Below, piece after piece: positions 20,005 to 58,030 of a DNA stretch of 64,000 bases. The position numbers and the translations under genes are program-made. Position 1 is the stretch's first letter. Each line of letters opens with the position of its first letter. Source of the stretch: Aphanocapsa sp. GSE-SYN-MK-11-07L (GTDB lineage: Bacteria > Cyanobacteriota > Cyanobacteriia > Thermosynechococcales > Thermosynechococcaceae); contig JAHHGS010000044.1 of the NCBI GenBank assembly GCA_019359715.1, positions 1 through 64,000 of the forward strand, written 5' to 3'. Under the pieces are notes generated by a model, which was given only the letters and a program-made list of their open reading frames with translations, ran no database searches and had not been told where the DNA came from.

Positions 20005-20090
20005 ATCCCCCCAACCCCCCTTAAAAAGGGGGGCTTTGATCTTTTCTGAAGTCCCCCTTTTTAAGGGGGATTTAGGGGGAACTCCTATCC
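20005..20090. repeat. Paired C5/G5 palindromic repeat between two GH13 genes
   Basis: Two adjacent hairpins, CCCCCCTTAAAAAGGGGGG-type at about 20015-20033 and CCCCCTTTTTAAGGGGG-type at about 20053-20069, are followed by ATTTAGGGGGA. The same cores recur at 35.9, 57.4 and 57.9 kb. They resemble the small palindromic repeats dispersed in cyanobacterial genomes. The hairpins could also limit readthrough between the two amylase genes. Confidence 0.7.
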
Positions 20091-35753: not shown

Positions 35754-35860
35754 GGACAACACCAAAACCTACAGAGCAGGCAGACTAATTTGAATCTAAG
35801 ACTTTTCGCAGAAAGATCTTAGATTTAATTTCGCCCACCAACATGTATCAATTTTCACCA

Positions 35861-35893
35861 ATCCCCCCAAATCCCCCTTAAAAAGGGGGATCT
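35861..35893. repeat. C5/G5 palindromic repeat upstream of argB
   Basis: ATCCCCCTTAAAAAGGGGGAT with a preceding CCCCCCAA. It is one hairpin of the dispersed family seen at 20.0, 52.1, 57.4 and 57.9 kb. It lies between the divergently placed ends of the argB leader and the thioredoxin gene. Confidence 0.7.
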
Positions 35894-57347: not shown

Positions 57348-57497
57348 CTGGTTAATCTTCAATCAACTTTAGGAGGCGCGCAGTTAGATTAGATCCCCCA
57401 ACCCTCCTTAAAAAGCTACTGTGTATACACAAGTCCACTAGACTTCGTTTTGAGATTTAAATCCCCCTAAATCCCCCTTTCCAAGGGGGACTTTGAA
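57348..57497. repeat. Left arm of a long inverted repeat flanking a DUF559 remnant
   Basis: 57421-57494 is the reverse complement of 57914-57987 over 74 nt with few differences. The core includes AAGTCCACTAGACTTCGTTT and the hairpin CCCCCTTTCCAAGGGGG. Similarity probably continues outward to about 57394. The two arms enclose about 420 nt. Within each arm the palindrome loop TTTCCAA keeps the same orientation, showing it was not simply inverted. Confidence 0.75.
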
Positions 57498-57780
57498 TTA
57501 GAGCAGATCGGCAATTTGTTTGCATATGCGATTGAAATCATTTATCACGTCCTGATTCCTAAATCTGACAACTTTAATCCCATAGCCTGCCAAAACTGCG
57601 CTTCTCTCTGTGTCATAAGTCATTCCTTCCTTCGTATAATGTTGTTGCCCATCAAGCTCAATTGCTAATTTTACAGACACGCATTTGTCGAGCGAGTTCG
57701 ACAAGATTATAGTCATAAGGCAGTGAAAAGTCGGCATCTTTTACCTCTTCTTTGAGAAGGGAAGTTACTGCAATTCCCCT
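57498..57780 (-). pseudogene. Broken DUF559 (Vsr-like) endonuclease gene
   Basis: The C-terminal half is intact: KLAIELDGQQHYTKEGMTYD and AGYGIKVVRFRNQDV are the catalytic PD-(D/E)XK part of DUF559. Upstream, in another frame, VKDADFSLPYDYNLVELARQ and MR reproduce the typical start (LPYN-x-xL-x-x-A-x-x-LR). The roughly 35 residues that should join them are missing and the frame shifts at about 57675. The gene is therefore inactivated by an internal deletion. It is enclosed by long inverted repeats. Confidence 0.75.
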
Positions 57781-57882
57781 GTCTTTACCCAAACGCACGC
57801 CCAAGGAACCTCGGCGCGATTTAGATCGCTAGGAGAATGTCTAAAAAGTCGAAAAATTAGCTCATCTCTACATTCGATCCCC

Positions 57883-58030
57883 CCAGCCCACTTTTTAAGG
57901 AAGGAATTAACTCAAAGTCCCCCTTTCCAAGGGGGATTTAGGGGGATTTAAATCTCAAAACGAAGTCTAGTGGACTTGTGTGCATACGGTAGCCTTAAAA
58001 AGGGGGCTTCAGAGTTAAAGTCCCCTTTTT
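57883..58030. repeat. Right arm of the inverted repeat, with extra palindromes
   Basis: 57914-57987 mirrors 57421-57494. On its outer side TAGCCTTAAAAAGGGGG continues the similarity to the left arm's outer side. Further hairpins CCCCCTTTCCAAGGGGG and AAAGTCCCC/GGGGGCTT extend to 58030. The miaA gene starts 56 nt later. Confidence 0.75.

Follow-up and report, generated by a model that had tools for sequence, protein, structure and literature searches.

A broken gene for a DUF559 nuclease lies between two inverted repeats in the window, i.e., the 64,000-nucleotide stretch of DNA from Aphanocapsa sp. GSE-SYN-MK-11-07L that was analysed, and the question is whether this arrangement is a small mobile or homing element, as a sequence-only reading had proposed. 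Such an element is of interest because what spreads many bacterial palindromic repeats is not known. The authors of an earlier paper (PMC3733652) sort most REPs into the GTAG and CGTC super-families, name RAYTs as the supposed mobilizers of the GTAG super-family, and describe the CGTC super-family as apparently lacking a dedicated transposase. No paper tying DUF559 to such palindromic repeats was among the matches listed in a search of titles and abstract beginnings in the open-access literature, which leaves subscription papers mostly outside.

The features of the locus are collected in Table 1, together with loci used for comparison. Sequence comparison of the two arms revealed that they comprise 99 nt each and are inverted and 87% complementary, and the 74-bp core noticed in the sequence-only reading (57421-57494 and 57914-57987) lies in register inside them. 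With 500-nt flanks, the window unit reached an inverted-flank score of 66.5. The inner repeat has the same make-up in both arms, ATCCCCCTAAAT-CCCCCTT..AAGGGGG-ACTTTGA, with the head outward and the hairpin on the gene side. Its 17-nt hairpin core reads identically on the plus strand in both arms despite the inversion of the arms, in agreement with the same-orientation loops described before; it looks as if one loop had flipped. The palindromes do not appear to form a separate layer of repeats: what most of the 96 listed arms have in common is a hairpin, and the long arms of the window extend it.

Table 1. Positions of the window unit and identifiers of loci used for comparison.
Feature	Position or locus	Strand	Remarks
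Left inverted arm	57402..57500	+	3' side of nuclease gene; 87% complementary to 57908-58006
Right inverted arm	57908..58006	-	5' side of nuclease gene
Inner REP-like repeat, left arm	57461..57496	+	Head ATCCCCCTAAAT, hairpin 57473-57489, tail ACTTTGA
Inner REP-like repeat, right arm	57912..57947	-	Hairpin 57919-57935
REPIN-like hairpin pair, right side	57880..57947	-	Resembles solo copies L004, L006, L007 of the same genome
DUF559 pseudogene, C-terminal half (EVDG-H part)	57513..57683	-	Whole reading frame 57498-57737
Probable N-terminal remnant, other frame	57685..57732	-	By eye resembles N-terminus of C111 copy
TVIAW loop, repeat-DUF559-repeat alleles	L046, L192, L193, L198, L205
TVIAW loop, solo repeat	L194		About 42 nt
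TVIAW loop, short	L202, L204		Taken as empty
TVIAW loop, other inserts	L195, L196, L197, L199, L201
Control ORF with inverted flanks	L151:13509-14162		RAYT-like, by eye
Control ORF with inverted flanks	L173:4776-5114		GIY-YIG-like small protein, by eye

The gene between the arms is broken, as had been claimed. Its whole reading frame matched PF04480 with an E-value of 7.4e-14 and 52 bits (curated cut-off 20.6), and the match lies in the C-terminal half, which in the alignment corresponds to residues 46-102 of DUF559 domains that are intact. A Pfam profile search gave no match in the frame of the probable N-terminal remnant. If this remnant is genuine, about 36 residues including the conserved VDFY would probably be missing before the C-terminal half. 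The exact size of the deletion is uncertain, because with two of the five reference domains the alignment of the pseudogene continues to residue 24, across two stops. Judged by its reading frames, the window copy does not seem to be housed in an intron or intein.

The genome that harbors the window is a draft of 5.1 Mb. A whole-genome search with the window unit yielded 55 match rows, with many places appearing on both strands, and at least 29 other stretches match the unit (40 of 64 candidates were scored, the unit itself being excluded). Stretches similar to the inner REP-like repeat of the left arm were found elsewhere in the genome, and solo copies resemble the paired-hairpin part of the right arm. 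Within the window, two further matches to the hairpin repeat are present (20049-20080 and 35860-35890). PF04480 matches occur at three places, and all three lie between palindromic repeats, which belong to two families. The C111 copy is flanked by two hairpin pairs that by eye are of the same family as in the window (inverted score 17.5). By eye, the stop codon of this copy (L010:1825-1827) falls within the downstream repeat. The C118 copy is bracketed by a palindromic repeat of unrelated sequence, GACCCACCCCGCCC..ACCCCTCCCAGGAGGGGAT, which is present on its two sides in inverted orientation.

The recurrence of this arrangement was analyzed with a flank test, in which the 300 nt preceding each full-length DUF559 domain were compared with the 300 nt following it for their best inverted match, and scores of at least 16 were counted as strong. 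There were 162 distinct DUF559 loci, and the 156 whose flanks both measured 150 nt or more were counted. Strong inverted flanks were present at 96 of them, and the median score was 19. At random positions in loci of at least 9 kb the threshold was reached in 5 of 898 cases, and at other ORFs in such loci in 3 of 553, with a median of 9 in both controls. For the excess at the DUF559 loci, Fisher p was about 2e-72, with copies that are not independent and a sample that is not random. The three control ORFs were by eye a RAYT-like gene (L151), a GIY-YIG-like gene (L173) and a biosynthetic gene (L189), and all were kept in the counts. An enlarged set comprised 184 DUF559 loci, of which 6 were dropped for short flanks; of the remaining 178, 114 had strong inverted flanks and 64 did not. 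The repeat-nuclease-repeat unit that had been suggested therefore recurs, and the association of DUF559 with palindromic repeats is firm.

The loci in both sets are best-scoring or place-chosen hits and, thus, non-random, and the window copy, being partial, is in neither set. The genome scan used a seven-sequence DUF559 alignment, and of 546 confirmed places it retained the 80 best, which biases the sample towards close relatives. When flanks of 32 DUF559 loci were paired with those of other loci as a control (n=992), the scores had a 95% point of 27.5, a 99% point of 39.5 and a maximum of 116, a fat tail that is probably due to repeat families common to the loci. In the set with named organisms, 39 of 75 loci had strong inverted flanks, i.e., 10/18 in Cyanobacteriota, 9/21 in Bacteroidota, 10/19 in Chloroflexota, 3/7 in Planctomycetota, 4/5 in Pseudomonadota, and 3/5 in five further groups with one locus each. 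DUF559 with inverted flanks was found in eight of the ten named phylum-level groups sampled.

In a common arm type, a CCCTCAYCCC head precedes a CCCCTCTCCC..GGGAGAGGGG hairpin. A looser CCTCAYCC tag was found on at least one side of 95 of the 178 loci, and on both sides of 58. The nearest head-tag pairs of these 58 were ordered >< in 24 cases, <> in 19, >> in 10 and << in 5. This order is non-uniform and mixed, and, therefore, single as well as paired hairpins seem to occur beside DUF559. Among 194 genomes of the class, the pattern of this common arm type (type C) was present in 115, the copy number per genome being 0-374, and the reversed control matched once. Ten or more copies were taken as abundant and a DUF559 match with E under 1e-20 as strong. 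A strong DUF559 match was present in 99 genomes, and 48 of these had abundant repeats, compared with 15 of the 95 others. When strong matches were permuted against all others within families, the repeat number was again higher with DUF559 (p=4e-4). A related pattern was counted in 17 genomes of other phyla with known DUF559 loci. Four of them had 14-162 copies, four had 6-9, three had 1-2 and six had none, and the control matched once. In two of the six genomes without the pattern the DUF559 locus lacks strong arms, and in the other four the arms are of a different make-up.

Repeat and nuclease also covary. Over the 114 loci with strong flanks, arm similarity correlated with nuclease identity (Spearman 0.24, Mantel p=0.002). 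An arm score of at least 20 was reached by 9-12% of the pairs under 50% nuclease identity, by 23% at 50-60%, by 69% at 60-75%, and by all 38 pairs at 75-90%. Shared descent accounts for part of this covariation, and a co-travelling unit predicts it too.

In 43 of the 178 loci the nuclease frame extends by at least 60 aa, and inverted flanks were found at 33 of these 43 versus 81 of the 135 others. The host frames of such in-frame copies include Eco57I-type methylases (L024, L057) and the large gene of L046, which has a D12-methylase match below its cut-off; we take large methylase-like proteins of this type to be DUF1156. The loop before TVIAW was readable in 13 of 18 homologues of the L046 gene. 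Five alleles carry repeat-DUF559-repeat, one carries a solo repeat, two are short, and five have other inserts, which in L195, L199 and L201 are other repeats without DUF559. By eye, the L198 insert has terminal inverted repeats, with CCCTCACC at its start and GGTGAGGG at its end; this feature of IS and MITE elements is also present in the window in the form of the arms. No target-site duplication was evident by eye in L193, L198 and L205, and a close empty allele for comparison was not found. The closest pair, L205 and L197, is 91-95% identical outside the loop, where the other allele has different inserts. Because additional inserts differ between the two, no exact target duplication was readable. 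By eye, the methylase-like gene of L197 has a four-helix-bundle-like insert at another loop. A DNA search for empty sites of one element in 26 genomes of its genus gave none among the matches listed. These matches were repeats, DUF559 relatives that had diverged (74-77%) and distant pieces of the flanks (67-72%). Solo repeats, some of them within open protein frames, are shared with miniature inverted-repeat elements and with in-frame palindromic elements of the Rickettsia type; in contrast to these, the DUF559 repeats also have a nuclease-bearing form.

A profile of 18 DUF559 domains matched two PDB entries, 3hrl (1.5e-29) and 3r3p, the catalytic domain of I-Bth0305I (3.3e-5). A Foldseek search with an AlphaFold2 model of a DUF559 relative (pLDDT 86.7) retrieved 3hrl, I-Bth0305I (3r3p, 5.7e-5) and, more weakly, Vsr (8e-3). 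Mitochondrial ribosome proteins of Toxoplasma and Tetrahymena were also matched in fold, but weakly (E 0.01 and above). The intact relatives are predicted to encode a small nuclease of the EDxHD/Vsr fold. Both profile and fold indicate a catalytic domain similar to that of the EDxHD homing endonuclease I-Bth0305I, and one publication (PMC9403480) places a DUF559 gene within the EDxHD family. Yet the long DNA-binding region is, according to PMC3943268, a feature of I-Bth0305I itself, whereas the repeat-flanked DUF559 proteins are small, with a median of 9 aa after the domain in frames that stop soon past it. In addition, repeat-flanked DUF559 genes lie between repeats rather than in introns. 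In L060, L064 and L040, DUF559 was by eye located in an intein-like frame; the host gene of L060 is a DNA methylase with Pfam Hint_2 and intein-splicing matches below cut-offs. The inverted-flank scores of these three are just 8.0-9.0, which fits a homing past that needed no arms. Vsr-like repair nucleases are weakly similar in fold. They include VsrA of Caulobacter, a DUF559-domain protein that, according to PMC12907096, a methylase mutant needs in order to respond to DNA damage. The difference is that this paper does not mention palindromes, and that the frames beside the window unit are by eye not methylase-like.

We think that the window unit is best explained, with a probability of roughly 0.6, as the decayed copy of a homing-like element that consists of a small DUF559 nuclease gene between inverted REP-like repeats and has solo repeats as its targets or derivatives. 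In this model the REP-like repeat is composed of a C-rich head and a subsequent hairpin. The nuclease would most likely recognise and cleave DNA at its own repeat or close to it, and break repair would place a copy of the repeat-nuclease-repeat unit at the cleaved position, in the manner of homing. The cutting would, thus, drive the copying, and the unit would move as a whole. Solo repeats could be targets, products of internal deletion, or both. The unit recurs, and a mobile or homing element, as first proposed, is the best reading, although two signs named at the outset as speaking against it were both seen. DUF559 without strong inverted flanks is found at 64 of the 178 loci, and many repeats are distant from any DUF559, some genomes without DUF559 even having them in abundance. 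These findings weaken the explanation, but do not refute it, because REP-like elements are expected to have solo repeats.

A REPtron, in which GTAG-tagged REPs flank a RAYT transposase gene, has a similar architecture: palindromic repeats in inverted orientation frame the gene of a small nuclease, and both solo repeats and paired hairpins are found elsewhere. The inverted hairpin repeats around DUF559 genes are likewise multicopy in the genome. The repeats could be ordinary REPs driven by RAYT, with DUF559 being incidental. RAYT, defined by a match over the curated cut-off, is present in 61 of the 194 class genomes, and type-C counts are somewhat higher with it (ten or more copies in 29 of 61 genomes versus 34 of 133 without; p=0.054); the genomes ranking third and fourth, with 156 copies each, contain RAYT as well as DUF559. 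However, RAYT is a poorer predictor of copy number than DUF559. The top two genomes (374 and 357 copies) have a strong DUF559 match and no RAYT over the cut-off, and in the top 20 a strong DUF559 match is present in 15 genomes and a RAYT in 7. The repeats are also different. The ten top-scoring RAYT loci fetched from the 194 genomes, seven of which had an inverted-flank score of at least 16, all carry by eye a GTAGGYTGGG-type repeat and none of them type C or A tags, and GTAGGYTGGGT, the GTAG repeat that is RAYT-type in this phylum and to which the search was limited, was found in 0 of the 178 DUF559 flanks. The enzymes differ as well, as the DUF559 gene matches PF04480 and has the PD-(D/E)XK, Vsr-like fold of 3hrl and I-Bth0305I, and not that of a Y1 HUH tyrosine transposase, RAYT being an HUH tyrosine enzyme according to PMC3733652. 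RAYT as the driver is, therefore, very unlikely and was set aside. The same holds for the view that the gene is stable and that the hairpins on its flanks serve it as transcription terminators or as other regulatory structures. GC-rich hairpins can indeed end transcription. Yet paired inverted flanks were seldom seen at the control ORFs, many of the repeats have a head outside the hairpin and are dispersed in many copies, and some adjoin DUF559 within longer open frames.

More serious is the view of DUF559 as a passenger or parasite. In this case a homing endonuclease gene would insert into REP repeats that another activity spreads, and the nuclease would target these repeats without propagating them. 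Such a parasite would look much the same. Ten or more repeats were found in 8 of the 66 genomes without a DUF559 match and in 7 of the 29 with weak or partial matches only, the TVIAW loop takes up other repeats without DUF559, and DUF559 also lives in intein-like frames with low flank scores. Nevertheless, within families the repeat number follows the strong DUF559 match, nuclease identity and repeat similarity covary, and a search that covered RAYT only found no other mobilizer at the DUF559 repeats. We regard the passenger role as rather unlikely. Finally, the window unit by itself could be a chance or assembly-made inverted repeat, given a draft genome in 159 contigs, but the same architecture recurs across many genomes, and the probability of such an artefact is negligible.

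Other small genes are framed by inverted repeats as well. PF05635 loci (L326-L355; four-helix-bundle, 23S rRNA IVP) had inverted flanks with scores of at least 16 in 16 of 28 cases, two more being too short. These flanks are short tandem repeats, many of about seven bases (by eye of the TAGTCAT, GGAGTCG and AATTACG types), and the CCTCAYCC tag was found at 4 of the 28 loci. Of 17 PF13366 loci (GxxExxY, PDDEXK_3), six partial or weak matches were excluded, and 8 of the remaining 11 (L356-L365, L369) reached this score with other repeats, of the ACCACGGAGGCACGGAGG and AACGCAGATGGACGCGGATGA types. DUF559 may be one example of a more general rule, by which each of several small genes without mutual relationship (GxxExxY nucleases, four-helix-bundle proteins, perhaps GIY-YIG) has its own framing repeat family.

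For the homing-like DUF559 element, a wider role can be proposed tentatively. A second large class of REPs in bacteria, those with the CCCTCAYCCC head and their relatives, could have DUF559 as its dedicated mobilizer, and these repeats would spread by nuclease-led break repair and with no transposase. In many phyla, abundant palindromic repeats frame a nuclease family of unknown function, which makes it possible to test how further repeats spread. DUF559 thereby gains a likely biology, and the element accounts for some of the repeat-coded inserts in genes of the restriction-modification type.
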